DNA from: Alteromonadaceae bacterium Bs31
GTDB lineage: Bacteria > Pseudomonadota > Gammaproteobacteria > Pseudomonadales > Cellvibrionaceae
Reading direction: 5' to 3'
Length of the DNA stretch: 64,000 nucleotides
Assembly (NCBI GenBank): GCA_900177435.1
Contig: FXAI01000001.1
Coordinates: 319,982-383,981 of the forward strand
Every line of letters starts with the position of its first letter. The first letter of the stretch is position 1. The notes beneath the pieces are model-generated. The model was not told the DNA's origin. It saw only the letters and a program-made list of their open reading frames with translations, and made no database searches. Both the position numbers and the translations under genes were made by a program. Below are positions 6,263 through 49,426 of the stretch, piece after piece.

Positions 6263-6322
6263 AGATCGGTCCTTGATCGCTTTGTGGTGTATAAAAATAC
6301 AGTATTGGTAAGTGGTGGTCAA

Positions 6323-35068: not shown

Positions 35069-36155
35069 TATAACAGACTACGCAGCACTGTTTTTAAATG
35101 ATATTGCCATGATGGATACCCGCTCGCCCGGCGAATTTGCGCGTGGCAGCTTCCCTGCGGCAAGCAGCCTGCCACTTATGAGCGACCAAGAGCGAGCACA
35201 GGTGGGTACCTGCTACAAACAACAGGGCCAGCAGGCCGCCATAGCCCTTGGCCATAAGCTGGTGAGTGGCGAAATAAAACAACAGCGTGTAGATGCCTGG
35301 CTGCAATTTACCGCGCGCCAGCCAAACGGAGCGCTCTATTGCTGGCGTGGCGGCCTGCGTTCCAAAACCTGTCAGCAGTGGCTGCGAGAGGCCGGTTGCG
35401 AGTACCCAAGGGTGGCCGGCGGTTACAAAGCCATGCGCCGATTTTTAATAGAAACCCTGGAAAAAACCTGTGCCGAACAAAAAATTATCATACTGGCCGG
35501 TCACACCGGCTCGGCGAAAACAGAACTCTTACAGCAACTGCCAAACAACATCGACCTGGAAGCGCTGGCCCAGCACCGGGGCAGCGCCTTCGGCAAACGT
35601 ATCACACCCCAACCGGCGCAAATCGATTTTGAAAACGCGCTGGCCGTTCAACTCTTAAAATGCGCACACCAAAACCCCCATCAGCCCATCGTACTGGAAG
35701 ACGAAAGCCACCTGATAGGTAAATGTTTTCTGCCACCTGCCCTGCAAATTGCCATGGCCAAGGCGCCGCTCATTGTTGTGGAGAGCGAGCTGGCGGAGCG
35801 CACCGACCACTCGTTTAACAAATATATTCTGCACAATTTATACGAATTACAGCAGCGGCACGGAGAAGGGCGCGGCTTTGAATTATTTGCCGCAGAACTC
35901 CGTGCGTCCCTGCATAACATACGCCGACGCCTCGGGGGTAAACGCTACGACGAATTGCTTGCTGTTTTAGAGCGGGCAATTGATGCCCATGCCGCCGGGG
36001 ATTGCACCTTACACCGGGAGTGGGTGGAGATTTTGTTGCGGGATTATTATGCGCCGATGTATGAGTATCAGTTGGACAAGAAGCGGGACAGGGTTGTTTT
36101 TCGGGGTGCTCGAAAGGCGGTTTTGGATTGGGTTTTGGCTGGTGTTGAATTGTGA
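35055..36155 (+). CDS. selU: tRNA 2-selenouridine synthase
   Basis: 366 residues. An N-terminal rhodanese domain opens with [18 protein letters not shown] and carries the catalytic Cys in YCWRGGLRS (about residue 97). A C-terminal nucleotide-binding domain has the P-loop GHTGSAKT (about residue 150), in which the Gly before Lys is Ala. SelU uses selenophosphate from SelD to convert 2-thiouridine to 2-selenouridine at the tRNA wobble base (Lys, Glu, Gln tRNAs). It is translationally coupled to selD. It marks the left boundary of the accessory region. Confidence 0.95.
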
Positions 36156-36733
36156 GTGTTTTTTCTATGCTAGTGTTCTGAAGCGCCGGGGTAGTTAGCG
36201 AGCGCTTGTTATATGGTTTTGGTTTTGTGTTTCATAGCCTTTGTGCACGCCGCACGGGCGTCACTTTTACAAAGTGCTTCTGCACTATGCCCCTCGGGAG
36301 GCCTGTAAAAATAGAGCCCAAAGCTGCTCCTGCAACTACGGCATTAGTGCAGCCATGCACGTTAACGCACACTCCAAGTTGGGTGCGCAAGCGCTTCCCT
36401 GGTTCCGGCGCTTCTGCATTGCACAAATGTGCCACAGCCATGTGGCGATGTGGGCTAAAGCCCAAAAATACCACCTCCACTTGGCGCTCGGAGGGGCGAT
36501 GGAAGTGTCGCCGTAGGTATTCGCGCTATTTGTTGCCAGCCTTTGGCGCCATATTCCTTGCTTTATTGGATTTAGGGCAAGAGGTGATATGTGGTGATTT
36601 GTGATTATTACTGTCTATGGGATTGTGTAAGGTTGGGAATCGAGCCTAAGCGGACGCTTGCAGTGTGGGTAATACGTGATTGTCACATGTAAGGTCTAAC
36701 GCCATTTACCCTTCAGGAGGCGGCACTCATTGA

Positions 36734-36928
36734 GAGTGTTTTATCAAACAAATAAATATCGGCCTCTATGCCGACTATTTCGATAATGATGTAAAGTTGC
36801 AGGCTACATTGGGTAATATCGTCGATAAACGTATAACACCCAAAAGCTTGAGTAATAGTCGGCTCGATGACTTACTATTTTGGGATATACGTCAATCTGA
36901 CGTATATTTATCGCCCATCTGCAAGTAA
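36734..36928 (+). pseudogene. Possible transposase-tail remnant
   Basis: An open segment without a start reads NIGLYADYFDNDVKL, then GNIVDKRITPKSL and SRLDDLLFWD. The RLDDLL-F/P-W pattern recalls the C-terminal end of IS66-type TnpC proteins (RIDELLPW). Only about 65 codons remain, so this is a weak call. Confidence 0.2.
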
Positions 36929-37066
36929 AGCCCGGTTGGCGGGGGTTGTGGGGTGGGGTATTTTTTTAAATGGGGAATATGTGTCATTGCGACTGACTAT
37001 TCCGGTATATGTGTCATCGCGACGTAGTATTCGGGTATATACGTCGTTTTGACGTAGATTCAATTG
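36885..37066. repeat. 30-bp palindromic direct repeats upstream of the first cassette
   Basis: Copies start at 36977, 37007 and 37037 (exactly 30 bp apart), with a fourth at 36885. Each begins ATATGTGTCA or ATATACGTC and continues, after 3 nt, to YGAC...TATTC; the first copy is a perfect inverted repeat (ATATACGTCA-ATC-TGACGTATAT when split at the centre). They end about 20 bp before the first cassette ATG. Iteron, operator or decayed element ends are all possible. Confidence 0.65.
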
Positions 37067-37085
37067 TTATATTTAGGGAGGCGCA

Positions 37086-37481
37086 ATGAAGTTAATCGTG
37101 ATGATTTTAATATTTATGCTTCTCAGCAATTCGGTTCATGCAGATGTGTATAGATGCATCGCTAACGTAGAAGAATTTTCGAACGACATTGAGTTTATTT
37201 ATCTGGATACAGAAAAGCGCTCAGTTAAGTTAAAAAATCGTGGGGGAACATTTAGCGGAAAAATAACCTCAATTCGCCAGCATAACCAAGGGCAAGTAAT
37301 GAATCTGTATTTAGAAAATACCGATCCATTTGAAGAAGGTCAAGATTCCGAATATATACTATTTACTTGGAAGAATAAATATCGGGTCGCAGGAGTTAAC
37401 TATATCATTGACAACGGTGAGAAAATACTTGATACGCTAGCAGGAAATAATGAAATCGAATGTAAAAAAGAAAAAATATAA
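37086..37481 (+). CDS. Cassette 1: secreted hypothetical protein
   Basis: 131 residues, RBS AGGGAGG 6 nt upstream. A clear signal peptide (1-19, ending VHA) precedes a small beta-rich domain beginning DVYRC; the two Cys (near the N- and C-termini of the mature form) could form a disulfide. No known family. Its stop codon lies inside the following attC, as is normal for gene cassettes. Confidence 0.75.
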   Translation: MKLIVMILIFMLLSNSVHADVYRCIANVEEFSNDIEFIYLDTEKRSVKLKNRGGTFSGKITSIRQHNQGQVMNLYLENTDPFEEGQDSEYILFTWKNKYRVAGVNYIIDNGEKILDTLAGNNEIECKKEKI

Positions 37482-37604
37482 CAAGGTTATCAACCATCGC
37501 CAGCAAACTGGCTGGACCTACACTGCGTTGCTTCGTTTACGGTTTAACGCTACGCTACCGTAAACAAATCAACTCCGTTCCGGCCGGTTATAACGGCGTT
37601 AGGC
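37479..37604. repeat. attC site 1
   Basis: Begins TAACAAGG and ends GGCGTTAGGC. Inside, AAGGTTATCAACC pairs with GGTTATAACGG, and the centre has CGTTTACGG...CCGTAAAC. About 126 bp. This is the integron cassette recombination site pattern. Confidence 0.9.
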
Positions 37605-37730
37605 TTGCACATGATCAACCGAATTACTATTTTCATAATAATTTTATTGTTGAGTGGAATAACGATGGCAGGTAACTGGTTTCCAGAAGACTATAAAACA
37701 TTTCCTGTGAACCAAAGCAGTCTAATATGA
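37594..37730 (+). pseudogene. Duplicated head of cassette 3, truncated
   Basis: Positions 37594-37706 repeat 38280-38392 with one mismatch: the attC end plus the signal peptide and first residues of the cassette 3 protein. The copied frame (ATG 37611) then runs into unrelated sequence and stops at 37730, its TGA overlapping the ATG of the next gene. Confidence 0.9.
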
Positions 37731-38185
37731 GCGAGAACAATTTTAAAAATTCTATTGGTAAGCCCCTAGCAGGAACTGGTTTAGTCGCTCTGTGGCTTTC
37801 AGCTTTCTTTGTGCCAATAGTTGAGATAAGCACCTGCACTCAGGGTAGTGAAGATGCCTGGCTGGGATCACTATTTGTATTTTTTCCAGTTTCATTGGTT
37901 GCTGTTGGTTTGGCTTTCCTTGGAACCGGTGCGCCAACTCGTATCAAATGGCTGTCCTTGCCATTATTTGGTTTACTTCCTTGGGCGGCATATATTGCAG
38001 GTAAATATATTTTGGGTACAACTCTAGGTGGCAATCATTTGTGTGCTCTCTCAACCGGTGAACTAGGTTTTAATTCATATCCTAGCTCATGGTGGGCTCC
38101 GTTCTGGGGTCCAATGCAGTTAATTTTTGTAGCGGTAACTGCATGGTGTTTAATTAGGTATTGGTGGCCAAGTTCCAACTGCTAA
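37727..38185 (+). CDS. Cassette 2: hypothetical four-span membrane protein
   Basis: 152 residues with four hydrophobic segments (about 17-35, 45-65, 72-92, 118-142). No recognised family. The start ATG overlaps the stop of the truncated cassette 3 copy (ATGA), so translation may be coupled to that leader-like fragment. The stop TAA forms the start of attC 2. Confidence 0.7.
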   Translation: MSENNFKNSIGKPLAGTGLVALWLSAFFVPIVEISTCTQGSEDAWLGSLFVFFPVSLVAVGLAFLGTGAPTRIKWLSLPLFGLLPWAAYIAGKYILGTTLGGNHLCALSTGELGFNSYPSSWWAPFWGPMQLIFVAVTAWCLIRYWWPSSNC

Positions 38186-38290
38186 CAAAGCCATCAAATT
38201 GACGTTTTTTCCGTTGCTCGTTTTGTGTCTTAACGCTACGCTATCACAAAACAACCAACTACAAATCCGCAATTTATGGCGGCGTTAGGC
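38183..38290. repeat. attC site 2
   Basis: Begins TAACAAAGCC and ends GGCGTTAGGC, with the inner pair GTTTTGTG...CACAAAAC shared with several other sites here. About 108 bp. Confidence 0.9.
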
Positions 38291-38296
38291 TTGCAC

Positions 38297-38773
38297 ATGA
38301 TCAACCGAATTACTATTTTCATAATAATTATATTGTTGAGTGGAATAACGATGGCAGGTAACTGGTTTCCAGAAGACTATAAAACATTTCCTTTCCAAGA
38401 GGGAGATGTATTAGCAAGTCAAAAAGAAGATGAGAAGTATGGGCTAAATAAAGTATTGCGAATTGATAAGGTAATGTTGAAGGAAGGTGATTCAATCAAT
38501 ATACAAGGTCAAATATTTACCGCTCCAGAAGATGATTTTCTTCTAATTATTAGCATGTCGTATGGCGAAGCCGACTTTGCTACATTAGATGATGCAATAC
38601 TAGCGGCAAAGGCCGGTGAGTGGAATGTTAAAATGGGGCACGCGCCAAATAGAAGTCCTGGTGCAGCAGCGGGCCAAGTTTTGGTCGGCCATCAGCCTGT
38701 AAGTGATTCAGAGCTTACTGGATACAACCAATGGAAAGAATTATTTGAAACAGGTAAAGCAGGTGTTTTCTAA
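38297..38773 (+). CDS. Cassette 3: secreted hypothetical protein
   Basis: 158 residues from the ATG at 38297. Signal peptide (1-18, ending TMA), then NWFPEDYKTFPFQEGDVL, a compact acidic domain with no Cys. Family not recognised. It lies 7 bp after attC 2. Its head is duplicated in front of cassette 2. Confidence 0.7.
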   Translation: MINRITIFIIIILLSGITMAGNWFPEDYKTFPFQEGDVLASQKEDEKYGLNKVLRIDKVMLKEGDSINIQGQIFTAPEDDFLLIISMSYGEADFATLDDAILAAKAGEWNVKMGHAPNRSPGAAAGQVLVGHQPVSDSELTGYNQWKELFETGKAGVF

Positions 38774-38782
38774 TCCTCAGCC

Positions 38783-38899
38783 TAACAAATTGCTGCACGC
38801 GGACACATACTGCTACGCTCGTTTTTGTGTATGTCGCTGCGCTCCATTTTCACACAAAAACGCTCTCCGCAGTATGTTCCGGTGAGCAAGGCGTTAGAT
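38783..38899. repeat. attC site 3
   Basis: Begins TAACAAATTGC and ends AAGGCGTTAGAT; inner CGTTTTTGTGTA pairs with ACACAAAAACG. About 117 bp. Confidence 0.88.
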
Positions 38900-38910
38900 G
38901 CAGTCAAAAT

Positions 38911-39429
38911 ATGAAAATATACTTCTACCTACTTTTATTTTTCTTTTCTGGCTGTACCTTTAATGGCCAGGAACCGATTTTTAACAAAAGTGAAAGCGCA
39001 CTTTTTTGCCCTGAAAAAATGGGGTTTACAAAAGAAAATGGAGAAGGGTTCAGTAGTTTAGAAGAGTCACGCGCTTATATTTCTCGCTTACTTCAAAAAC
39101 GTAAAGAGCATGCCGAGTCATTTGGGTATGACGAAGATGCTATTCTAAAACCCTTGTTGGAGCGTATAAATGCAGATATTTGTGTTAGCTTTTTCGGCTC
39201 ACCAGCGTCTCCTACTCTTGTTGACGAGTACCGTTCAAAAGGAATCAATATTCGGCAGTGTGAAATGGAGCCAAAAAGATTTGTAAATATATACGACCTC
39301 AAAGAAGCTAAGTCGAATGGCTCTTACTTGTTGTACGTAAATTGGCCACTCTCGGCATCGGCATATCTACTTGAGTGTTCGAATGGTGTATGTAGTATTG
39401 TAGAAGAAAGCATGTGCTGGATTAGATAA
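38911..39429 (+). CDS. Cassette 4: hypothetical lipoprotein
   Basis: 172 residues from the ATG at 38911, 11 bp after attC 3. The short signal peptide ends in the lipobox FFSGC (Cys 14), so a lipid-anchored envelope protein is predicted. Five further Cys in the mature part. Family not recognised. Translation could also begin upstream inside the attC, but that would not give a signal peptide. Confidence 0.7.
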   Translation: MKIYFYLLLFFFSGCTFNGQEPIFNKSESALFCPEKMGFTKENGEGFSSLEESRAYISRLLQKRKEHAESFGYDEDAILKPLLERINADICVSFFGSPASPTLVDEYRSKGINIRQCEMEPKRFVNIYDLKEAKSNGSYLLYVNWPLSASAYLLECSNGVCSIVEESMCWIR

Positions 39430-39437
39430 TAGGTGCA

Positions 39438-39550
39438 TAACAAAGTTATCAACCTGGTGCCTCATGCTCCGCGCCTTTTTGGGGTGGCTTCGCCACTTTA
39501 CCCCAAAAAAGTCACACCCACATGTGGCACAGGTTATAACGGCGTTACAT
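39438..39550. repeat. attC site 4
   Basis: Begins TAACAAAGTTATCAACC and ends GGTTATAACGGCGTTACAT; the centre has TTTTTGGGGT...ACCCCAAAAA. About 113 bp. Confidence 0.9.
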
Positions 39551-39576
39551 GTGTGAAGGATTAATTACCTCAAGAT

Positions 39577-40527
39577 ATGAAACGATACATTAATTTAATC
39601 GGCCTCCTTGCTCTCGCCTCTACTTTGATACTAGGTGTCTTAGGCCTTTTTAGTCATGTACACTTAATATTTGATCTTGCGTCACATTTCAGAGTTCATT
39701 ACGCTATTACGGCTTGTGTTGCCTCAATTATATTTTTGTTTTATCGGGCTCATTGGTTAGCTCTTCTAAGTATAGTTTCGCTGGCATTTAATCTTGCGTT
39801 CGTAGTTCCTTGGTATTTCGGAAGCAAGGAAACGGCTTCAAAAGAAGACATAAAAATATTTTTGAGTAATGTGTTAACAAACAATAGTGACCATGGAAGA
39901 CTTGTCTCTCTTATACAAAACGTAAGCCCCGATATTATTGTCGTTATGGAGATCAACAATAGTTGGGTGAATGCTCTAAATGTATTAGAAAACGAGTATT
40001 CGTATAGTAAATTGGCTCCGAGAGAGGATAACTTTGGAATTGGTGTCTATAGTAAGCTACCTATTATCATGGGATCAGTTAAGTATTTCGGATCTTCCGG
40101 TGTCCCAAGTATAGTGTTATCTCTGGAGGCTGCTAAAGGTACTCTAACATTAGTAGCTACTCACCCAGTACCTCCGATCGGCGATGACTATTTTAAATCG
40201 AGAAACAAGCAGCTGTCTCACGTCGCAAAAGAAGCCGAAAAAATTAGTGGGCCATTTATACTGGCAGGTGACCTGAATACTACAATGTGGTCATCTCACT
40301 ATAGTCAGCTTGAAAAAAACGGGAAGTTACGGAATGTTAGACGTGGTTTTGGTATTAATGCTACCTGGCCGTCTGGGCTTGGTATTTTAGGTATTCCCAT
40401 TGATCATGTGTTAATTTCCGACGAAATTCGAGTGGTAGATGTGAGGGTTGGCGCTAGCGTGGGCTCCGACCACTTACCCCTAATAATTGAACTAAGTATT
40501 ATTGGTAGCGTTTCAGCAGGCACATAA
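39577..40527 (+). CDS. Cassette 5: membrane-anchored endonuclease/exonuclease/phosphatase-family protein
   Basis: 316 residues. Three N-terminal membrane spans (about 7-27, 43-58, 61-82) precede a soluble EEP domain. Catalytic motifs are visible in order: VVMEINNSW (metal-binding Glu, about residue 128), ATHPVPP, AGDLNTTMWS (Asp-Asn), IDHVLIS and SDHLPL (catalytic His). This is the layout of the membrane-anchored EEP proteins found beside many bacterial envelope genes. The fold hydrolyses phosphodiesters or phosphomonoesters; the active site faces the periplasm if the third span exits outward. An unusually large cassette for this array. Confidence 0.85.
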   Translation: MKRYINLIGLLALASTLILGVLGLFSHVHLIFDLASHFRVHYAITACVASIIFLFYRAHWLALLSIVSLAFNLAFVVPWYFGSKETASKEDIKIFLSNVLTNNSDHGRLVSLIQNVSPDIIVVMEINNSWVNALNVLENEYSYSKLAPREDNFGIGVYSKLPIIMGSVKYFGSSGVPSIVLSLEAAKGTLTLVATHPVPPIGDDYFKSRNKQLSHVAKEAEKISGPFILAGDLNTTMWSSHYSQLEKNGKLRNVRRGFGINATWPSGLGILGIPIDHVLISDEIRVVDVRVGASVGSDHLPLIIELSIIGSVSAGT

Positions 40528-40633
40528 CAAAGCTGTAACCTGCCCAAACTATTACGCGTTTTTGTGCAATACGCTGCGCGCATTTTCGCACAAAACTGCT
40601 CCATAATTTGGGCAGGTTACAGCGGCGTTATGC
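40525..40633. repeat. attC site 5
   Basis: Begins TAACAAAGCTGTAACCTGCCC and ends GGGCAGGTTACAGCGGCGTTATGC; the outer arms match over about 14 bp. About 109 bp. Confidence 0.92.
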
Positions 40634-40649
40634 AAAGACGAGGAAACTA

Positions 40650-41120
40650 ATGACCTATAAAGTTCTTTGGAAAGAATTGTGGCTGAGCCTATCAAAGTAC
40701 ATGGCCATCGCAATCACTATCCCTGTTCTAATTGTTTTCGTCATTCGCTATGTAAAGTATGGGTATGACTTCGGTGCAGCATTTCCTCATTTGAATTTAA
40801 TCAACTCCTTAGTAATAGGTTCCGGAATTGCCATATTTTGCATTGCATTCGCGTGGCTTATAGCTCTTTGGGCCGGAATGGCCAAAATAAGTATTAGCAA
40901 TGGCATAATTCAGGGGCGAAACTATTGGGGCTTTAAAAATAGCTTCCCATTATCCGAGTCAGTTTCATCGTATAACTTCAGCAATAATGGAATTAATGCC
41001 ATTGTTCTTGTTAGCAGAAATAGTGGGAAAATTTATATCTCACTTCAAACTGAGAAATTAAATGAGCTGCTTGACTTAATTGAGCCATATATACTTAAAA
41101 ACAATGAAAAAAATGCATAA
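40650..41120 (+). CDS. Cassette 6: hypothetical two-span membrane protein
   Basis: 156 residues from the ATG at 40650 with GAGGAA 5 nt upstream. Two strong membrane spans (about 17-35 and 50-75) followed by a ~75-residue soluble part rich in Ser and Asn (PLSESVSSYNFSNNGINAIV), of the kind seen in PH-like domains. No family assigned. The stop lies in attC 6. Confidence 0.7.
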   Translation: MTYKVLWKELWLSLSKYMAIAITIPVLIVFVIRYVKYGYDFGAAFPHLNLINSLVIGSGIAIFCIAFAWLIALWAGMAKISISNGIIQGRNYWGFKNSFPLSESVSSYNFSNNGINAIVLVSRNSGKIYISLQTEKLNELLDLIEPYILKNNEKNA

Positions 41121-41221
41121 CAGCTCAAACCGACCTCCACTGCGTTGCTCGTTTTGTGCTTTTCCGCTACGCTCGCACAAAACAATCAACTCCGTTGCGG
41201 TGGCTTAGCTGGGCGTTAACT
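41118..41221. repeat. attC site 6
   Basis: Begins TAACAGCTCAAACCG and ends CGGTGGCTTAGCTGGGCGTTAAC; centre CGTTTTGTGC...GCACAAAACAA. About 104 bp. Confidence 0.9.
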
Positions 41222-41239
41222 TAAAAAGGAGAGTTCACA

Positions 41240-41563
41240 TTGAAAATATTTATAACGCTAATTATTTTTTCGCTATCCGCATTATCCCACGGTGAGGCAG
41301 TATGGAAAGAGGGGGAAGTTAGCTGGGTTTATCCGCAGGCGAATGGGAGTTTTGCTGTGACATTTAAAGATCCTTCTCCTGACTGTACTCACTCAAGTGG
41401 GTACCATTACGCAAAGGTTGGTGAAAATAGTGTTACGCAAGAGGGGCTAAATAATATGTATTCTCTTGCACTTGTGGCTGCTACGACGGGAAAAAAATTA
41501 AAAGTCAATTTTAAATCTGAAAGCTCAGCGTGTTTTGTTAATCGTATGTATATAGTTTTTTAG
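41240..41563 (+). CDS. Cassette 7: small secreted hypothetical protein
   Basis: 107 residues, TTG start with AAGGAGAG 7 nt upstream. Signal peptide (1-18), then VWKEGEVSWVYPQANGSFAV, and two Cys in the mature chain. Similar small secreted proteins are common in marine cassette arrays, but no family is assigned. The attC that should follow is truncated. Confidence 0.7.
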   Translation: MKIFITLIIFSLSALSHGEAVWKEGEVSWVYPQANGSFAVTFKDPSPDCTHSSGYHYAKVGENSVTQEGLNNMYSLALVAATTGKKLKVNFKSESSACFVNRMYIVF

Positions 41564-41566
41564 GTC

Positions 41567-41628
41567 TTAACGCTTACGCTACACAAAACGGCCCATTACA
41601 ATTTTTCCGCAAATGAGCGGCGTTATGT
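41567..41628. repeat. attC site 7, left half missing
   Basis: Only the right part remains: TTAACGCTTACGCTACACAAAACG, seen here in pieces as the usual centre, then the terminal GAGCGGCGTTATGT. The expected TAACAA and CGTTTTGTG arm are absent, and the gene's 3' end abuts the remnant directly. Likely unable to recombine. Confidence 0.75.
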
Positions 41629-41657
41629 GCACGTACTAAACTAGTAAGGAGTTTACA

Positions 41658-42146
41658 TTGGGGTTAATAGAAGCTGTAGCAATTTTTGGAGTTCTCTTGT
41701 CACTGTTTGGGGTAGTGAATGTTGTCAAAATACAGGCTCGAAAGAAGTGGCCAACAACCATATGTAAAGTGGGTGACTCCGATGTGGAAGTAAGCGAGGT
41801 GGTAGTTCATAACTTGTTATCAAAACAGAGAAATATGAATAGCTACCGATCCAAGTCATATAGTTTTAAACTGAACTACCTCTATAATATTTCAGGTAAA
41901 AATTACTTGGGAACTACTATATTTTCAGGTTCAATACTCGGTCAGACACACAACGATATGCTTCCTTATACAAATGGGTCTACGCATACGGTTTGGTATA
42001 ACCCGGCCAAGCCAACATCCGTATTTCTAAAGCATTCGAGCGTAATTCCATCGATAGTGCTCATTGTCTTAGGGTTGCTTATTGTGGTTGGTGGTCTGTG
42101 GCCAGAGTTGTATGCAGAGTTGTATTCGCATGCAGTTAGCACATAA
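41658..42146 (+). CDS. Cassette 8: DUF3592-type membrane protein
   Basis: 162 residues, TTG start with AAGGAG 8 nt upstream. One N-terminal and one C-terminal membrane span (about 5-25 and 135-155) enclose an extracytoplasmic domain with WPTTICKV, YLYNISGKNYLGTTI and VWYNPAKPTSVFL. The W-P-t...Y.Y.v.G....g........YNP.nP..a.L order is that of DUF3592 proteins, a widespread family of unknown function. Because attC 7 is broken, cassettes 7 and 8 would move as one unit. Confidence 0.75.
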   Translation: MGLIEAVAIFGVLLSLFGVVNVVKIQARKKWPTTICKVGDSDVEVSEVVVHNLLSKQRNMNSYRSKSYSFKLNYLYNISGKNYLGTTIFSGSILGQTHNDMLPYTNGSTHTVWYNPAKPTSVFLKHSSVIPSIVLIVLGLLIVVGGLWPELYAELYSHAVST

Positions 42147-42198
42147 CAATCTCAGCCAGCAGGACCGCTAACGCTCGCCGGAAATTGAGGCGTTAGCA
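42144..42198. repeat. attC site 8, short form
   Basis: Begins TAACAATCTCAGCC and ends GAGGCGTTAGCA, only 55 bp. The inner CGCTAACGCTCG centre is retained, so it keeps the essentials in minimal form. Confidence 0.8.
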
Positions 42199-42235
42199 TC
42201 AGTACCGAAGTTCAGTTTTACGAGGAGAAAAATAG

Positions 42236-43111
42236 TTGTTGTTAGAAATAGGAATAGGTGATGCTTACGGGGCTGGCTTTGAGTTTTCTGCTAGAGAAAA
42301 AGTTGAAGCTTACAATAACCTGACAAATTACTGTGAGCATGAATTAGGAATTGCTGCCGGTTGCTATACAGACGATACTCAGATGTCTCTCGCGATAGCT
42401 GAATTGATCATTAGTAACGTAGCATGGACTAAGGAGAACTTGGCGGATAAATTTGTTGAGTGTTTTAAACGTGATGAACGTTTAGGGTATTCAAAAGGTT
42501 TTTATTTGTTTTTACAGTCAGTTCAGAGTGGTGCGGAGTTTCTAAATAAAATGAAACCAAACAGCACTAGAAACGGTGCTGCTATGAGATCGGCACCGTT
42601 GGGGTATGTTAGTGACGTCAATAGACTACTAAAAATGGCCGAGTTGCAAGCGTCTATTACTCATGATACTGAAATTGGCCGTAGATCTTCACAAGCGGTC
42701 GCTTTAGCATCGCACTATGCCATATATAACTTGGGTGCTAAAGAAAATCTAACAGAATATGTGTCGCAACATACCAAATTCAATTGGCAGGATAATTGGT
42801 CTTCTCCTGTCGCGTGCTGTGGAGAGGAAACCGTCAACGCACTTTTAACTGTGTTGAAATCTTCTGAAACTCTAAAAGAGATTCTTTTAGCCAGCGTTGC
42901 CTTTGGTGGAGATGTGGATACAGTGGCAGCTGTTGGTTTGGGTATTGGAAGCGTTAGCAACGATTATAGTTCAGGGTTGCCAACATTCCTATACGAACAG
43001 CTGGAAAACGGAAGGTACGGGAAGACCTACCTCCTAGAAATGGGAATGAAGCTAAGTGAAACTAAAAATATTGCTGATAAATCTGTTAGCAATATCAATG
43101 AGATGAAATAG
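42236..43111 (+). CDS. Cassette 9a: ADP-ribosylglycohydrolase-family protein
   Basis: 291 residues, TTG start with GAGGAG about 9 nt upstream. It has the DraG/ARH landmarks: GDAYGAGFEFS at the N-terminus, YTDDTQMSLAIAELI (about residue 44, the TDDT metal site), HDTEIGRRSSQAVAL (about 141), and GGDVDTVAAVGLGI near residue 224 (usually GGDTDT). The metal ligands are preserved, so an active enzyme removing ADP-ribose or a related group is plausible. The first residues start directly at the GDxxG segment, so the protein is slightly short at the N-terminus. It shares its cassette with the next gene. Confidence 0.88.
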   Translation: MLLEIGIGDAYGAGFEFSAREKVEAYNNLTNYCEHELGIAAGCYTDDTQMSLAIAELIISNVAWTKENLADKFVECFKRDERLGYSKGFYLFLQSVQSGAEFLNKMKPNSTRNGAAMRSAPLGYVSDVNRLLKMAELQASITHDTEIGRRSSQAVALASHYAIYNLGAKENLTEYVSQHTKFNWQDNWSSPVACCGEETVNALLTVLKSSETLKEILLASVAFGGDVDTVAAVGLGIGSVSNDYSSGLPTFLYEQLENGRYGKTYLLEMGMKLSETKNIADKSVSNINEMK

Positions 43112-43113
43112 TT

Positions 43114-43488
43114 TTGGATAATATTATTCGAAAAAAAATAGAAATAATTATCGAATTACACGATGCTATTTTTCCAATAGCTCAAGAAGATTTGTACGAG
43201 AGCGAAGATGCTAAGATGTGGGATGGCTATGTTGAGCCCGTATTGAAACTACACGAAGCTATCGACTCGGCTTTTCGATTCAATAAAAATATTCAACCGG
43301 TTGACGTAAGCAAATCGTACGAAGCTGGCGGTGTAGAGAAACTCAATGCCAATGAAGTTGGGTTTGTTTTTCGAGATATCTTGATGAATGAAAAGTGTAA
43401 TCTGGGGCTATTTGCTGATGTTATAGCCGATGGCCGCGTTACGCGCTTGGTAAACAGGTTAAAAGAGATTGTGCTAAACCAATGCTAA
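43114..43488 (+). CDS. Cassette 9b: hypothetical partner of the ADP-ribosylglycohydrolase
   Basis: 124 residues, beginning with a TTG 2 bp after the previous stop, inside the same cassette; GAGATGA just upstream could serve as ribosome site. Predicted all-helical and acidic (IIIELHDAIFPIAQEDLYES), with no signal peptide or Cys until the end. Family not recognised. The tight spacing implies co-translation and possibly joint function. Confidence 0.65.
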   Translation: MDNIIRKKIEIIIELHDAIFPIAQEDLYESEDAKMWDGYVEPVLKLHEAIDSAFRFNKNIQPVDVSKSYEAGGVEKLNANEVGFVFRDILMNEKCNLGLFADVIADGRVTRLVNRLKEIVLNQC

Positions 43489-43601
43489 CAAGGTTTTCAA
43501 CAAAGACGTGCTGGACAATGCTTGCTTTTGTGCATGCCGCTTTGCGTCATTCTTGCACAAAACAAGCTCCACTTTAGCCGCTTGTTATAGCGGCGTTAGC
43601 C
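43486..43601. repeat. attC site 9
   Basis: Begins TAACAAGGTTTTCAAC and ends TTGTTATAGCGGCGTTAGCC; centre CTTTTGTGCATG...TTGCACAAAAC. About 116 bp. Confidence 0.9.
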
Positions 43602-43616
43602 AATTCGGAACCCCAC

Positions 43617-44462
43617 ATGAATAGAGTTATAGTTTTTGCCGCCTTATTAATTACGATAAAGGCGATGGCGAGCGCAGGTGCTCCAGAAATGAAGAGCGAG
43701 AATGGTTATATTGAACCTTTCAGAATGTTTGACAACGTTTACTACGTTGGAGATAAGTGGGTGTCCTCGTATGCTGTTGAAACACCATCCGGCCTGGTAA
43801 TCATCGATACTCTTGATTTTCCGTATAGCAGGTGGATACCTATTAACCTAGAAAAACTAGCTTTAAATGATAAGAAAGTAACTCACATTATTGTGACTCA
43901 TGGACATTCCGACCATGTCGGTGGTGCAGAGTTTCTTCAGTCGCTGTATGGCGCTAAAGTAATAATGTCGAAAAAAGCATTCAGGTTGAGTAAAGAACAA
44001 GCGCTGAAAAGCGAAGGTAAAAGTAGATTTTCGCCCCCAGTGGTAGAATCCTTCGCTGAGGACAGGTCAAATATGCTTGTTGGTGATACAGAATTCAAAT
44101 TTTACATAACGCCTGGTCATACAGAAGGTGATATGTCAATTGATTTTAGGGTTAAAGATAAGGGCAAGCTATATCGTGCTTTTGTCGTAGGTGGACATAG
44201 TGTAAATCTTCAAAATCCCGGTCTTGCACAGCAATTTGTAGATAGTATGGATCGTATAGAGAGCTTGGCCTTACAAGGTACACCGGTATCCGTTAATTTA
44301 TCTAACCACCCACATAAAAATAATTTGTTTGAAAATCTAGAAGAAAGCGTAAAAGAGGGGTCAAGTAAGCCATTTATAAGTAAAGAGGAATTCTTCATGT
44401 TTATAGAGCAGCAGAGGGACTTGGCGAAAGCTAAAAATATCAATAATTATTCAAAGAAGTAA
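43617..44462 (+). CDS. Cassette 10: secreted metallo-beta-lactamase-fold hydrolase (subclass B3-like)
   Basis: 281 residues, ATG 16 bp after attC 9. Signal peptide about 1-19. The zinc site is complete: THGHSDHVGG (about residue 94; HxHxDH), the third His in TPGHTEGDMS (about 167) and a late His in LSNHPHKN (about 230). The use of HxHxDH with a late SxH and no Cys ligand is the subclass B3 pattern, where the enzymes hydrolyse beta-lactams with two zinc ions. The middle GGHSVNLQNPG also resembles B3 enzymes. It may equally be another periplasmic MBL-fold hydrolase; carriage on a cassette makes it worth testing. Confidence 0.85.
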   Translation: MNRVIVFAALLITIKAMASAGAPEMKSENGYIEPFRMFDNVYYVGDKWVSSYAVETPSGLVIIDTLDFPYSRWIPINLEKLALNDKKVTHIIVTHGHSDHVGGAEFLQSLYGAKVIMSKKAFRLSKEQALKSEGKSRFSPPVVESFAEDRSNMLVGDTEFKFYITPGHTEGDMSIDFRVKDKGKLYRAFVVGGHSVNLQNPGLAQQFVDSMDRIESLALQGTPVSVNLSNHPHKNNLFENLEESVKEGSSKPFISKEEFFMFIEQQRDLAKAKNINNYSKK

Positions 44463-44472
44463 GAAACACATT

Positions 44473-44584
44473 TAACAAGTGCAGCTTACGGATAGTCGCT
44501 ACCTACGGCTTTTTTTGTGCTTGGTTTAGCCACTATCGCACAAAATTCCCTGCTCCGTTCCTGCCGCAACTACGGGCGTTAAGT
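44473..44584. repeat. attC site 10
   Basis: Begins TAACAAGTGCAGC and ends CGGGCGTTAAGT; centre TTTTTTGTGC...GCACAAAATT. About 112 bp. Confidence 0.88.
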
Positions 44585-44599
44585 GTCACGGGTGACGAG

Positions 44600-44848
44600 A
44601 TGAGAGAAGTAACTAAGTCAGAATTTAAAGACGCTTATATAAGATATGGCGGCCTTAAAGAAGGATATGACCTGGAATATTGGGATCAGCAAATTAACAC
44701 TGCCAAAAAAACAGGGTTCAAATATTTGTTGAAGGAGCCAGAGCCAGAAAATGCGCATAGAATGATGCTGGTCGATGATTATTCAAGTAAAGAAATTAGA
44801 ATGTTCTTTGTTTCGATAGGGCAGGAAGAAAGCATATTTAATAGTTAG
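44600..44848 (+). CDS. Cassette 11: small hypothetical protein
   Basis: 82 residues, 15 bp after attC 10, with GTGACGAG upstream. Cytoplasmic and acidic, with no Cys (EVTKSEFKDAYIRYGGLKEG). Family not recognised. The attC expected after it is not recognisable. Confidence 0.65.
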   Translation: MREVTKSEFKDAYIRYGGLKEGYDLEYWDQQINTAKKTGFKYLLKEPEPENAHRMMLVDDYSSKEIRMFFVSIGQEESIFNS

Positions 44849-45330
44849 TTGAGCTAACATAAACGGCTGTACAAGAATGGTACTTAATCGATTGTTAAGC
44901 ATCACACGAAACTATTGCCGTATATAGTAATACCTAAAGCTTTATTCTTTGTTGGCTGCTCATATGAAATAAGTCTCTCGGCAGAAGTCAACGAAGATTG
45001 CAGTGTAGATGTAGCATTTGATAATAAGAGCCCTCAAATAAGATGCTTTCTTAATAACGCACCCTTCTGGAACTGATTACCAATCAAAAACTGACGGGAA
45101 AAACTGGCTAGGGCTTAGAGGGGAACTGGTGCCTTAGGTTGGAGAGCGTGAATAATATTTGAATTGCGCTAGTATGGTGCGAACATTTTCTGCAATACAT
45201 GCAATATTCTTTTATATGGCGTGCAGGATTCTTGGTTGTAATCCATTTATAAGGTTTAACCTAAAAGTAACGGAACGTTTTGTTATTATTGTGGGTCGGT
45301 GGTAATGCAGAACGCCGCTAGTGAGGCTCG
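44849..45330. other. Decayed cassette region
   Basis: About 480 bp that lack a clean attC at either side. It includes a possible 53-residue lipoprotein frame (44915-45076). The segment near 45300 (GGTAATGCAGAACGCCGCTAG) is at best a degenerate attC end. The spacing suggests one lost cassette. Confidence 0.5.
44915..45076 (+). CDS. Possible small lipoprotein or remnant
   Basis: A 53-codon frame from a TTG reads ALFFVGCSYEISLSAEVNED and ends NNAPFWN. FVGC would be a lipobox, and two further Cys follow. There is no ribosome site, so it may be the surviving part of a lost cassette gene. Confidence 0.3.
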   Translation: MPYIVIPKALFFVGCSYEISLSAEVNEDCSVDVAFDNKSPQIRCFLNNAPFWN

Positions 45331-45618
45331 ATGGATCGTAATGTAAGAGAAAATGTAGATGGGTGGGATATTTATTTCCAGAGAAATGTACATATGTACA
45401 CCCACGCCTTGTCTAAAAAAATGGGGGGCTTCAAGTTCAGCATTAGTTCTGAAGACCTGCCTGTTAAGGAAAAAACTATTGGTGTATGGCTATATACCTC
45501 ATCTATCCCGGAAAGCATGCTAGAAAATATACAGGCCGTTCTAATAAAGTGGGCGAAAAGATACGAGATAAAGTTTCAATTATATGCGAGTAAAGAAGAG
45601 TCCGTTGATAGTCGCTAA
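45331..45618 (+). CDS. Cassette 12: small hypothetical protein
   Basis: 95 residues. GTGAGG lies 4 nt before the ATG. A mixed alpha/beta soluble protein with WDIYFQRNVHMYTHALSKKM near its start and PESMLENIQAVLIKWAKRYE near its end. No signal peptide or Cys. Family not recognised. Confidence 0.65.
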   Translation: MDRNVRENVDGWDIYFQRNVHMYTHALSKKMGGFKFSISSEDLPVKEKTIGVWLYTSSIPESMLENIQAVLIKWAKRYEIKFQLYASKEESVDSR

Positions 45619-45624
45619 ATCGCA

Positions 45625-45735
45625 TAACGCCGCTAAAACCTTACACCGCAGGCTACACTTATTTTTGGTGTGGCTGCGCCAAAATACACTCAATAATCTG
45701 CTCTGCACGCAGTGGAGGTTCTAGCGTCGTTATGT
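45625..45735. repeat. attC site 12
   Basis: Begins TAACGCCGCTAAAACC and ends GGTTCTAGCGTCGTTATGT. The left core is TAACGCC instead of TAACAA, and the arms still pair. About 111 bp. Confidence 0.8.
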
Positions 45736-45753
45736 TTTATTCAAGGAATGTAC

Positions 45754-46287
45754 ATGGAATCAATTAAAGAAGCACAGAAGGATATGAACGAAGGCTATTA
45801 CTATGGTGTACCTGGTATCGTGTCTTCAGGAACTGTATGGCTGTTAGCAGGTATTCTTGCGCTCCTAGTGGAGCCTAGAATAGGTGTCGCTACACTGGTT
45901 TTTGGTGGTACTTTAATCTTTCCTGTTTCCGTGTTGCTATGTAAAGCATTGGGGCGTACTGGCAAGCATAGCAAGGGAAATCCCCTGGCACCGCTTGCTA
46001 TTGAGGGCACGATTTGGATGCTTCTGTCTATTCCGATAGCAATAGGAGCGGCCTTTACTAGTCTGAATTGGTTTTTTCCCGCTATGTTGCTGGTTGTCGG
46101 TGGACGCTATCTAACCTTTAATACCATCTATGGTTCTCGTGTATATTGGGCATTCGGTGTTGTCTTGGCTGTTTCTGCCGTTTCAATTATTGCACTACGA
46201 GCACCAGTTTATATTGGCGGCCTGTTGGGCGGAATTATCGAGTACGTTTTCGCAGTTATTGTATTAGTGCAAACCAAGAAAAACTAA
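45754..46287 (+). CDS. Cassette 13: six-span membrane protein (DUF7010-like?)
   Basis: 177 residues from the ATG at 45754 (AAGGA 6 nt upstream; ATG 45748 is too near). About six membrane spans between residues 25 and 170. The start SIKEAQKDMNEGYYYGVPGI and the central TGKHSKGNPLAPLAIEGTIW form a pattern shared by a family of small bacterial membrane proteins, possibly DUF7010; I am not certain. Function unknown. Confidence 0.7.
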   Translation: MESIKEAQKDMNEGYYYGVPGIVSSGTVWLLAGILALLVEPRIGVATLVFGGTLIFPVSVLLCKALGRTGKHSKGNPLAPLAIEGTIWMLLSIPIAIGAAFTSLNWFFPAMLLVVGGRYLTFNTIYGSRVYWAFGVVLAVSAVSIIALRAPVYIGGLLGGIIEYVFAVIVLVQTKKN

Positions 46288-46395
46288 CAAGCCGCTGCAC
46301 CTCACAAATATTGCTGCGCTCGTTTTGCGTATGTCGCGTAGCTTCATGTTACACATAGCACTCTGGACCTGCACCACTTGGCCTAGCGTTATCTT
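46285..46395. repeat. attC site 13
   Basis: Begins TAACAAGCCGCTGCACC and ends CACTTGGCCTAGCGTTATCT; centre CGTTTTGCGTATG...TACACATAGC. About 111 bp, with more mismatches than the others. Confidence 0.82.
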
Positions 46396-46488
46396 CCTTG
46401 ATGATTCTCATTGCTAATGCAATTCCTGACCACCTTTTTCTGGCTGCTTTTGAACACTAGCGAGTTGCGTTAATTATAAAATTACGCT

Positions 46489-46517
46489 TTACATATTCCC
46501 ATATGGGAATGTATAGT
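46489..46517 (+). promoter_or_regulatory. Promoter with operator palindrome of the arsR-type operon
   Basis: TTTACA (46489-46494) and TATAGT (46512-46517) are separated by 17 bp. The spacer contains the perfect 16-bp palindrome ATTCCCATATGGGAAT (46495-46510), a likely operator of the ArsR-type repressor encoded just behind. Transcription would start near the ATG at 46524. Confidence 0.6.
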
Positions 46518-46523
46518 GAAGGT

Positions 46524-46871
46524 ATGTCCAGAGTAAAAACCACTTACGATGTATTTAGCGCTATTGGCGACCCCAAACGTAGGGTGTTAATAGAGCACCT
46601 TGCGCTTAAAGAAATGACTGTGAACGAGCTGGTTACAGCGGTGAAATGGTCTCAACCTACAGTGTCAAAGCACTTGAGTGTACTAAAAAAGGTGGGCGTC
46701 GTTTCCGAAGTGAAAGAGGGTCGTTATAGACGCTACAGAGTCCAGCCAGAGGAGCTTCGTCCAATCCAGGAGTGGATGCATCAATTCGAAAAATACTGGG
46801 GCAACACATTGGACCAATTAGATAGCTATTTGAATCAGATCCAATTAAAAGGAGATGGCAATGAGCACTAG
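46524..46871 (+). CDS. ArsR-family transcriptional regulator
   Basis: 115 residues from the ATG at 46524; the open frame starts earlier at 46503, but that lies inside the operator. Winged helix-turn-helix of the ArsR type: YDVFSAIGDPKRRVLIEHLA, MTVNELVTAVKWSQPTVSKH, LSVLKKVGVVSEVKEGRYRR. No metal-binding Cys, as in the ArsR members paired with SRPBCC proteins. It overlaps the next gene by 11 bp. Likely autoregulated through the palindrome at 46495-46510. Confidence 0.9.
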   Translation: MSRVKTTYDVFSAIGDPKRRVLIEHLALKEMTVNELVTAVKWSQPTVSKHLSVLKKVGVVSEVKEGRYRRYRVQPEELRPIQEWMHQFEKYWGNTLDQLDSYLNQIQLKGDGNEH

Positions 46872-47367
46872 TAAAATTATCCCATCCGAAATTGTTCGGG
46901 AGTTTAACGCGCCAAGGAAGCTGGTCTTTGATGCATGGGTCGAAGTAAGGCACCTCAATAATTGGATGTTTCCAATGCCGGGCTGTAGTTGTGAATTTGT
47001 CTCAGCTGATATCCGTGATGGCGGTTCGTCACTGCATAAGGTCACGATGCCAAACGGACATCAAATGTGGCTTTACACAAAGTATGAAGTAGTAAAATCA
47101 CCTGAAAAACTTGTGTTTTTGCAATACTTTTCAAATGAAAACGGGGACATTGTTCCAATGCCTCATATGCCTAATTGGCCAAAAGACATGCTGGCAACAC
47201 TATGGTTCGAAGAACTCTCTGAGGTTAGAACTAAACTAACATTTCTTTGGGAACCGAGAAATCCAAGCCCTGAAGAACTTGAAGTTTTTGAATCTAGTCG
47301 CTCTGAGCATGGCAATGGCTGGGGTGCGGGTATGGAACAGCTCCACAGATATTTGGAATCGCTTTAA
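46861..47367 (+). CDS. SRPBCC/AHSA1-domain protein
   Basis: 168 residues from the ATG at 46861 (AAGGAG about 7 nt upstream). The START-like fold pattern is visible in IVREFNAPRKLVFDAWVEVR, then GCSCEFVSADIRDGGSS, and TKLTFLWEPRNPSPEELEVF with a final GWGAGMEQLHRYLES. Such proteins bind hydrophobic ligands and are commonly encoded with ArsR-type regulators, as here. The natural ligand is unknown. Confidence 0.88.
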   Translation: MSTSKIIPSEIVREFNAPRKLVFDAWVEVRHLNNWMFPMPGCSCEFVSADIRDGGSSLHKVTMPNGHQMWLYTKYEVVKSPEKLVFLQYFSNENGDIVPMPHMPNWPKDMLATLWFEELSEVRTKLTFLWEPRNPSPEELEVFESSRSEHGNGWGAGMEQLHRYLESL

Positions 47368-47407
47368 ATCGGGTACTGGTTAAAGGGTGTCAAACAGAGG
47401 GATGAAA

Positions 47408-47857
47408 ATGAGTAACCCAAAAAATACCCATAATAAAGTGTCGGTCCCAAAATGGTTCTGGATCATTTCTGTTTTAGCATTAGTGTGGTTTTTGATGGAT
47501 ATGTCTGCATTTATAATGAGAGTATTTATGCTAGAGGAAACACTCAAGGGCATGCCTCTGGCGCATCAAAATATCTATCTGAATATGCCTTCCTGGGTTA
47601 ATATTGTTTTTGCTTTCGAAGTATTTGGGGGTGTTGCTGGTAGTATTAGCTTGCTGCTGAGGAAAAAGCTGGTTTTGATTGGGTTTTTAATTTCACTGGT
47701 AGGCACATTAAGCCAAACAGGGTATGTTTATTTTCTGTCTGACGCCTTTAATGTGATCGGGTTGGCTGCAGTTATCATGCCGCTTGTGGGTATCACTATC
47801 TGCGTAGCTCTTATTATCTTCACCAAATCAGCAGTTTCTAAAGGCTGGATTCATTAA
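47408..47857 (+). CDS. Four-span membrane protein of the ArsR-SRPBCC operon
   Basis: 149 residues from the ATG at 47408 (AGAGGG 7 nt upstream). Four membrane spans (about 17-38, 65-85, 88-108, 115-138). VPKWFWIISVLALVWFLMDM and FEVFGGVAGSISLLLRKKL match a small family often labelled 'sugar transporter' without evidence. It is the third gene of the regulator-SRPBCC operon. Confidence 0.75.
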   Translation: MSNPKNTHNKVSVPKWFWIISVLALVWFLMDMSAFIMRVFMLEETLKGMPLAHQNIYLNMPSWVNIVFAFEVFGGVAGSISLLLRKKLVLIGFLISLVGTLSQTGYVYFLSDAFNVIGLAAVIMPLVGITICVALIIFTKSAVSKGWIH

Positions 47858-47881
47858 GCTGAGGCTTAACACATTAAGAGA

Positions 47882-47933
47882 TAACAAAAACAGGCAAGAC
47901 GGATGCTAAAAAGCAGCGCGCTTGCTGTTAGCT
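47882..47933. repeat. Candidate short attC site
   Basis: Begins TAACAAAAACAGGCAAG and ends CTTGCTGTTAGCT. The arms AACAG-GCAAG and CTTGCTGTT pair with one unpaired base, as attC arms do. About 52 bp, comparable to site 8. This would close the three-gene operon as a cassette. Confidence 0.4.
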
Positions 47934-48006
47934 GGTTAGCTGGGGGCTCAGTAATTGATACAGGTACTGAAGACGCTAGCTCTTTAAGCAGGACGCAGGT
48001 AAAGTA

Positions 48007-48813
48007 ATGGCAAACCACTTTATTCACTACATCAAGCGGGATGTTATTCTCAATGCTCCGGACGACCCGGATTCTCCTTTTTATGCAGAGTTGCAAGCCT
48101 ATGATTCGGGCTTCGATGTACCTGCGTTCCATGTAACAAGATCGACGTCTTGGCCAGTTAAAGAGATACACGAAGACGATGTTATCTGGCTGGTTGGTCA
48201 GTTGTCAGCCGGCTGGGGGACGCTTCCGCCAGCAATAGACGGAAAGGTTGTTGTCGGTAAGATAGAAGAGCTTGAGTTGGAAGAAGGAAAGTCGAAAACA
48301 AGATTTACAGCAAAGGAAGGGTCTAGGTGGTTTCCTTTGGCCGATGCAAGTGACGTTTTATCTAACTTAGAAGTGATTCTAAAAAATGGGGAAATCAAGC
48401 AGCTTTACGATCCCAAAAGTGATAATTTAGGGCAAGCTTTTCAAAGCCTAAAAAAAATAGTTAACCCCAGTACTATCGAAATGTGGGCCTCAGAACTGCT
48501 AAAGAAAGAGTTTGAGTTTATTAGCTATAGAATTGCTGATGGAACTAAGGGGGCTTTTTTTAAGGCACAACAACAAATTAAACAGGGAAGCTGTGTGTTT
48601 TGGGATCGTTGGTCTCTGCCTAGGCGGCTTGCCGAACGGAGAGAACTCGTATCTGATGAAGCGCTTGACAATCTCTTAATGAAAAAAATCAAGGAATCAT
48701 CATTGGTGTGGGGGATAGAGTCACCAAGATATGATGAAGAAGGTAGTTATTCGCGAAGAGAGAAACAATTGGCTTTGGAGATGAAAAAGTACAATGGTTC
48801 CTCAATTGCTTGA
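48007..48813 (+). CDS. Cassette 15: hypothetical protein
   Basis: 268 residues, no signal peptide. The middle reads GWGTLPPAIDGKVVVGKIEE, then GSRWFPLADASDVLSNLE, giving a beta-rich domain that might be PUA/EVE-like; the C-terminal third is helical and charged (SLPRRLAERRELVSDEAL). I cannot name a family. Placed between a candidate short attC and a degenerate one. Confidence 0.6.
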   Translation: MANHFIHYIKRDVILNAPDDPDSPFYAELQAYDSGFDVPAFHVTRSTSWPVKEIHEDDVIWLVGQLSAGWGTLPPAIDGKVVVGKIEELELEEGKSKTRFTAKEGSRWFPLADASDVLSNLEVILKNGEIKQLYDPKSDNLGQAFQSLKKIVNPSTIEMWASELLKKEFEFISYRIADGTKGAFFKAQQQIKQGSCVFWDRWSLPRRLAERRELVSDEALDNLLMKKIKESSLVWGIESPRYDEEGSYSRREKQLALEMKKYNGSSIA

Positions 48814-48815
48814 GC

Positions 48816-48975
48816 TAACACGTCTATTTAATACGCTGAGCCCATTAGTTAAAACCATTCCGGCCCCAAGTGGCCTCCATGGGACGCCCAATTCGATGAA
48901 TGGCTTTGCATAGGCTGTTGCCAATTGACAAAGGCCAATCACCAAGTCTTGCGCCCTATTAGCAAGGTGTTATGT
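48816..48975. repeat. Degenerate attC-like region
   Basis: Begins TAACACG and ends AAGGTGTTATGT, about 160 bp. The outer cores fit, but the inner arms pair poorly. It may be a decayed site. Confidence 0.35.
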
Positions 48976-49007
48976 GTCCAACAAGCAGAAAGAAAAAGGA
49001 GATTTAA

Positions 49008-49388
49008 TTGAACATTATCGTTACATTTATATTGTTTTTGTCTGTGTCAGCTCTTGCAATCGAAAAGCCTGCCAACCCCTTAGGGTTTGAGTTGATAGAA
49101 GGGTATAAAAAATACGATGGAAATAAGTCTTACTATTGCCATTTGAATTCGGTCTATATCGGTTTTTCCTCTCGATACTATGAAGACTATCCTAGAAATA
49201 CCGACGCGGTGGGTGGTGAGTCGTCAAAGGCAATTGTTTGGAATCATGAGGCGAATCGGCCTTATCGATGCAAAGAATTCATTGAGCTAAGAGAAAAGCT
49301 TATGTCCAAATACGCTTTGGAGCATGATGAATATGAAAGACTAAAACCGAAGTCTAAACCTATTGGGCCTCGCAAAGACATAAGGTAA
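49008..49388 (+). CDS. Last cassette: secreted hypothetical protein
   Basis: 126 residues, TTG start with AAAGGAG 7 nt upstream. Signal peptide about 1-17, then a Lys/Tyr-rich mature protein with two Cys (YYCHLNS, YRCKE). Family not recognised. No attC follows it before the chromosomal genes resume, so it marks the right edge of the array. Confidence 0.65.
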   Translation: MNIIVTFILFLSVSALAIEKPANPLGFELIEGYKKYDGNKSYYCHLNSVYIGFSSRYYEDYPRNTDAVGGESSKAIVWNHEANRPYRCKEFIELREKLMSKYALEHDEYERLKPKSKPIGPRKDIR

Positions 49389-49426
49389 TGGCAAGCGTAC
49401 ATCACCGCAATACTATAAAGGTTTAA

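Follow-up and report, generated by a model that had tools for sequence, protein, structure and literature searches.

A cassette array headed by its own attI-type site: a probable satellite of a distributed chromosomal integron in Alteromonadaceae bacterium Bs31

The usual description of an integron comprises a single integrase, a single attI and a single array of cassettes, and an array that lacks an integrase tends to be regarded as degraded. In the class 2 integron of Tn7 the attI has been kept beside a defective intI2, on a single mobile platform. Here we analyse an array of gene cassettes in a 64,000-nucleotide stretch of the genome of Alteromonadaceae bacterium Bs31 (contig C40:319982-383981; genome of 5.02 Mb in 46 contigs), referred to as “the window”, in which positions are counted. 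Its forward genes lie between selU (35055-36155) and fetB/argG, names that are presumed, having been assigned without a family search both in an earlier sequence-only reading and here. With a probability that we put at roughly three in four, the array of the window is a satellite within a distributed chromosomal integron, in which copied platforms have no intI and their attI sites are served in trans.

Saccharophagus degradans belongs to the same family as the source bacterium. In its strain 2-40, a core integron is accompanied by five satellite sites that carry its repeat (PMC2386152), a layout like that of the source genome; in that text the satellite leaders are not described and the terms attI and attC do not appear. 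Xanthomonas has clusters of attC sites lacking integron integrases (CALINs) outside the ilvD locus, apart from intI and said to be mobilisable in trans (PMC12444791); unlike in the window array, no attI is described at those loci in the available part of the source. The Shewanella prophage M16-3 has a CALIN with its own attI (PMC9892861). This is a single prophage case, whereas here there are nine heads in the source genome and 47 across seven genomes of its genus. In the Delta-attI-type gene cassettes of mobile integrons, extra attI sites recombine with IntI1 (PMC12901181); as presented there, these are attI pieces within single cassettes, whereas here attI heads chromosomal arrays. SOS control of intI is well known (PMC3108266). 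In the open-licence PMC literature, no paper was found that describes a chromosome in which few integrases go with many attI-headed arrays, and attI-headed satellite arrays as the regular layout of a genus appear to be new.

The sequence-only reading had placed the array at 37086-49400 and proposed either a CALIN or the distal end of a large integron in the chromosome. It overlooked an attI leader just upstream of that start, and the distal-end proposal is not supported, the left edge being an array head with its own attI. The leader ends at an attI-type crossover, GATTCAATTG↓TTA (the arrow marks the junction). Its core spans about 36751-37066, and the part upstream of this is common to the copies on C21, C40b and C45a only. 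Toward the junction it is built of 30-bp units with the inverted repeat TACGTC-N4-GACGTA, whose number differs between leaders and which may bind IntI, like the direct repeats of other attI sites. The segment 36740-37076 is homologous to the spacer between intI and attI on contig C35, with 59/70 positions identical next to the junction and 104/158 further up, and the attI core differs from this intI-adjacent copy in one base of 19. This homology and the common junction G↓TTA lead us to predict that an attI heads the window array. Within the leader there is also a palindrome (Table 1). When it is searched with 0-1 mismatch, all 19 genomic rows fall within leaders, so that palindromes of this kind are unsupported as a genome-wide regulon; at two mismatches the reversed-pattern control is also high, with 16 control matches against 31 matches in all.

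Downstream from the leader are ten full-length attC sites on the + strand at 37479-46391, scored at 49.8-94.2 bits by covariance model R1 (E 8.7e-11 to 6.5e-23). The training alignment of R1 has 15 sites with TAAC/GTTA ends, ten from the window and five from another array of the same genome, and the window sites therefore match by construction. Independent support comes from covariation and from the many attC sites outside the training set that R1 detects in other arrays of the genome and in relatives. Genome-wide there are at least 147 matches at E<=0.1 on 17 contigs, with 150 of 1334 candidates scored. The attC structure is supported by pairing in 89.8% of cells and by changes on both sides in 15 of 23 pairs, which none of 500 shuffles reaches, and sliding the partner by 1-3 columns drops the pairing to 33-44%. 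Covariation in the alignment gives the same picture: 60 cells are changed on both sides, 0/500 shuffles are as high, and only 10-20 are found with the partners slid. The earlier count of at least twelve attC sites or remnants thus holds with the ten secure sites plus a short and a truncated one seen by eye, the last candidate in Table 1 being at chance level. The proposed extent holds in part, with 37067-46391 secure and 46392-49400 doubtful. To the left of the leader, ends resembling TAACAA and GGCGTTA lie on the minus strand at 36206-36701, perhaps a remnant of a reversed cassette; R1 at E<=1 reports nothing in this segment. A scan of the window against Rfam at gathering thresholds gave one tRNA and nothing else.

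As had been noted, the window contains no integron integrase: when IntI is compared by tblastn to the 64 kb, the lowest E value among the matches listed is 0.82. An attC cluster with no IntI relative in the window is by definition a CALIN, and that name is kept; the arrangement of a complete integron, with intI next to attI, is not found. Searching the rest of the genome for both, as the sequence-only reading had suggested, revealed a single intact intI, located on a different contig, and eight more attI-type heads. This intI, on C35 (open reading frame 5340-6410), is the only one above the TIGR02249 cut-off (410.6 bits, cut-off 265), and the three other matches in the genome are short, at 20-34 bits. 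The motifs GSGLR, HTFRHSF, GHTDLSTTQIYTH and AWQYMFPA are present, which we take to be the catalytic motifs of a tyrosine recombinase and the IntI-type region. The gene is predicted to encode an intact, full-length IntI recombinase. A LexA-type box, CTGTATATACGAACAG, is found 14 nt upstream of its ATG (5388), and its own array runs leftwards on the contig.

The other heads of the genome were found with 36740-37090 as the query, which matches nine further places at E<=1.6e-9. Eight of them end in ...TTCAA(A/T)TG↓TTA as in the window (one reads CTA), while the ninth, at C27:22743, has no clear junction. Including that of the window there are thus nine heads, and the cassettes behind them differ from head to head. 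On average, two heads are 86% identical over the 20 nt preceding G↓TTA and 30% identical over the 20 nt following TTA, as would be expected if different cassettes had been inserted at an attI. Since the junctions were gathered with motifs set from the aligned leaders, the motif alone is no proof of homology, and leader homology is taken from blastn. On C15 (L024, 3655-3871) a shortened leader is embedded in an array and flanked left and right by attC sites of like orientation, so that two arrays seem to have been fused there. C35 carries several tandem copies of a cassette that is about 400 bp long and has no long reading frame (L005, about 2511-4138), and similar ones at 90-92% identity are in other arrays (C12, C15 and C25-type contigs: L025, L028, L031, L032). 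This cassette may have a regulatory role or encode an RNA; Vibrio is known to have promoter cassettes that lack a gene (PMC11014356).

The leader of the window was found in one of the 58 genomes searched, the source genome itself, and an intI match at E<=1e-30 in 41 of them. Mapping of attC in ten relatives (giving minimum counts) and fetching of heads from six other genomes of the genus (G002 was left out) yielded 47 attI heads in seven genomes, 7 beside an intact intI and 40 “orphan” heads that are not. At 42 of 55 head positions, the leader or junction motif is shared with another head of the same genome (G000 9, G001 5, G003 3, G004 9, G005 3, G006 6, G007 7). One more head, L116 of G004, is beside intI and has a related junction of its own (being divergent, it is left out of the mean identities around the junction for that genome), and four found later complete the 47; in this set of 55, the head positions of L115, L128 and L131 are beside intI and not at attC. 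In a search across eight genomes, the G007 leader was found at five places, all in G007, and the G006 leader at seven, all in G006, while one leader type is common to G003 and G005. The comparison of the selU-argG interval, also proposed earlier, was partly informative: in seven relatives there is no attC near selU, and fetB/argG fall outside the fetched stretch, so that no clean empty site was seen.

Similar layouts may recur in other genera of the family. The attI-core pattern with one mismatch matches in 18 of 120 family genomes, with at most two matches per genome for the reversed control, and it misses G001 and G004, whose cores differ. In G082 there are six matches, and four of the five fetched share a leader with attC sites behind it. 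G066 and G019 each have a pair of heads, one of which is beside intI and the other not, and the two share 236 nt in G066 and 48 nt in G019; a further G066 match has no shared leader. G031 has two leaders off its intI contig, one followed by attC sites and the other cut by the contig end.

The use of orphan attI sites can be followed through copies of the first cassettes, which were sought for all 47 heads in the fetched loci of the same genome (match from the junction, at least 90 nt, at least 90% identity). A copy starting exactly at G↓TTA exists for 11 of the 40 orphan heads and 2 of the 7 intI heads, and in all 13 rows it is preceded by an attC-type end. Seven of the 11 orphan-head copies are 99-100% identical (L130 in G001, over 97 nt; L118, L121, L124 and L125 in G004; L071 and L113 in G007), and the copy of the L121 cassette is in the array beside intI. 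Because L118 and L125 are one duplicated segment, these amount to six events at most. The cassette may have been inserted at the orphan attI or brought there by a deletion up to it, and either route uses the orphan attI. These seven junction-exact copies with at least 99% identity thus indicate that orphan attI sites recombined recently, not demonstrably in the window. The heads and first cassettes of L118 and L125 are duplicated over at least 859 nt at 98.6%.

Some orphan heads also keep traces of an integrase. At L148 of G007 the attI head is flanked on its other side by some 98 codons of intI (56% identity to the IntI of G007), with a LexA-type box and a broken frame, in a place where the adjacent frame is presumably mutS. 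L075 and L113 of the same genome have remnants of DNA resembling the interior of intI, at 68% and 62% identity. LexA-type boxes accompany six of the seven intI heads against one of the 40 orphan heads, L148. The truncated intI, the remnants and this distribution of boxes fit platform copies in which intI has decayed and attI has been kept.

From this a scheme can be proposed. The integrase acting on the window attI would be encoded once, on C35, behind its LexA-type box, and the window array would be headed by the leader with its own attI. Once made, IntI would insert circular cassettes through their attC at any one of the roughly nine attI sites scattered over the genome, and several arrays could thereby be renewed by one enzyme. 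The orphan heads are most likely copies of an intI-attI platform that lost intI, and attI would have been kept after this loss because it can be served in trans. What is inferred here is that IntI acts on the window attI, that it is under SOS control, that the leader contains a promoter, and how the leaders spread. In its broadest form, this would be a polycentric integron: a single SOS-induced integrase would serve many attI sites of the chromosome, each of which would head an array and have it expressed, and a cell would have several leading cassettes at once and could move cassettes between arrays. Such a layout would be the normal one in the genus and would recur in other genera of the family; we put the chances of this whole reading at about even.

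It could be instead that the window array is a dead relic, an old integron copy whose integrase was lost and whose attI and cassettes are functionless fossils. This agrees with the lack of a nearby intI, with the short and the truncated attC, and with the fact that no exact-junction copy of the window's first cassette is present in the loci fetched. However, the genome has an intact intI, the window attI core is nearly that of the intI-adjacent copy, and in sister species orphan heads carry almost identical cassettes exactly at the junction, which makes a relic improbable. The missing copy also weighs against a satellite array, as do several other results. Among the loci fetched from the source genome, the C15 head is the sole one with an exact-junction copy, at 92% identity. 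Neither blastn nor tblastn finds intI or a remnant beside the window's leader, and scanning the leader for promoter consensus sequences gave 3 matches against 1.9 expected, close to chance. With 0.35 CTGT-N8-ACAG matches expected in 20 kb, one occurrence is in itself unremarkable, and the C35 box carries weight because such boxes recur at the intI heads. Twelve of the 55 head positions have no shared leader: contig or fetch ends truncate four of them (L035, L036, L037 and one position in L117), three have a different type of intI next to them (L085, L115, L131), and at five there is no leader (L034, L133, L134, L084 and the other position in L117). Finally, tblastn with ten IntI proteins gave nothing at orphan heads among the 55 positions (L147-L149 being outside that set), and the nine orphan leaders of G004 have no blastn match to the attI of either of its intI genes.

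The way in which the cassettes and leaders reached their places can also be read differently. Insertion by IntI at a chromosomal site other than attI (attG) is expected to give isolated cassette clusters away from intI (PMC12444791), but at the insertion point of the window there is a leader homologous to the intI-adjacent attI region, and not an attI-free site; for this array, attG insertion is very unlikely, and it may apply to the heads without a leader. That the arrays are one large integron split by the assembly might be suspected from the 46 contigs and from several arrays reaching contig ends. This hardly deserves credence and is largely refuted, since the window array is inside an 851-kb contig with chromosomal genes on both sides, and the single-contig genomes G001, G003 and G005 have several leader-headed arrays far apart. 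A spread of leaders by another mobile element, and not by copying of whole platforms, seems rather unlikely and would leave attI function the same, bearing on origin only. It is suggested by the leaders of G004, up to 97-98% identical, which share abrupt left edges in different surroundings and could have had another vehicle, and by left edges that differ between subfamilies in the source genome. Against it, no terminal repeats or target duplications could be established, a transposon end at the G004 left edges is no more than suggested, and the one orphan head with intI codons and the two with intI-like DNA point to platforms.

If orphan attI sites are live, a satellite reading of the window has wider consequences. 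Some CALINs would be active satellites, and a cell would have several leading, expressible cassettes and not one. IntegronFinder 2.0 does not detect attI outside class 1 (PMC9024848), so an array headed by attI but lacking intI would be classed as an ordinary CALIN. Genomes like the one studied here, which contain both orphan and intI-adjacent attI sites, would also allow the requirements of an attI to be tested.

Table 1. Leader, attC sites and cassette genes of the window
Feature	Position	Strand	Basis or remark
Leader of array	36526-37066	+	Homologous to eight other leaders with clear junction
Palindrome TATACGTC-N4-TGACGTA	36886-36904 (C40:356867-356885)	+	Pattern search of genome
Two repeat units, 30-bp spacing, with inverted repeat, adjoining crossover	36991-37060	+	Repeat family D7
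Predicted attI core GACGTAGATTCAATTG↓TTA	37051-37069; crossover between 37066 and 37067	+	Junction same at 9 heads of genome; C35 copy adjoins intI
Cassette 1 gene, 131 aa	37086-37481	+	No Pfam family
attC 1	37479-37601	+	79.2 bits
Cassette 2 gene, 152 aa	37727-38185	+	No Pfam family
attC 2	38183-38287	+	88.9 bits
Cassette 3 gene, 158 aa	38297-38773	+	No Pfam family
attC 3	38783-38896	+	94.2 bits
Cassette 4 gene	38911-39429	+	No Pfam family
attC 4	39438-39547	+	85.7 bits
Cassette 5 gene, endonuclease/exonuclease/phosphatase family	39577-40527	+	PF03372, E 4.3e-27
attC 5	40525-40630	+	70.5 bits
Cassette 6 gene	40650-41120	+	No Pfam family
attC 6	41118-41218	+	75.6 bits
Truncated attC, 5' half missing	about 41563-41625	+	By eye; unreported by R1 at E<=1
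Short attC candidate, 52 nt	42144-42195	+	By eye; unreported by R1 at E<=1
Cassette gene, ADP-ribosylglycohydrolase family	42236-43111	+	PF03747, E 3.8e-34
attC 7 (full-length)	43486-43598	+	89 bits
Cassette gene, metallo-beta-lactamase fold	43617-44462	+	PF00753, E 6.4e-21
attC 8	44473-44581	+	77.2 bits
attC 9	45625-45732	+	53.7 bits
Cassette gene, DUF7010 membrane protein	45754-46287	+	PF22765, E 1.4e-39
attC 10, last secure site	46285-46391	+	49.8 bits
Doubtful last attC candidate	48816-48972	+	13.8 bits, E 0.63, chance level

The cassette genes are mostly without known families, as the first reading had it: of 19 window proteins examined, 12 match no Pfam family at E<=0.01. PADLOC gave no match for the ten window proteins submitted to it. 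The product with the metallo-beta-lactamase fold is distant from subclass B3, since its best NCBIfam model, CAR subclass B3, gives 160.6 bits (cut-off 500) and the general B3 model 123.8 bits (cut-off 240). After the last secure attC, genes for an ArsR-type regulator, an AHSA1-domain protein and a Pfam-less protein follow in a row at 46503-47857, and these may be chromosomal and not cassette genes. A 181-nt repeat at 86% identity links 37526-37706 with 38212-38392 and comprises an attC end and the 5' end of the cassette 3 gene. The start of cassette 2 is this repeat fused to another gene, and cassette 2 thus looks like a hybrid.

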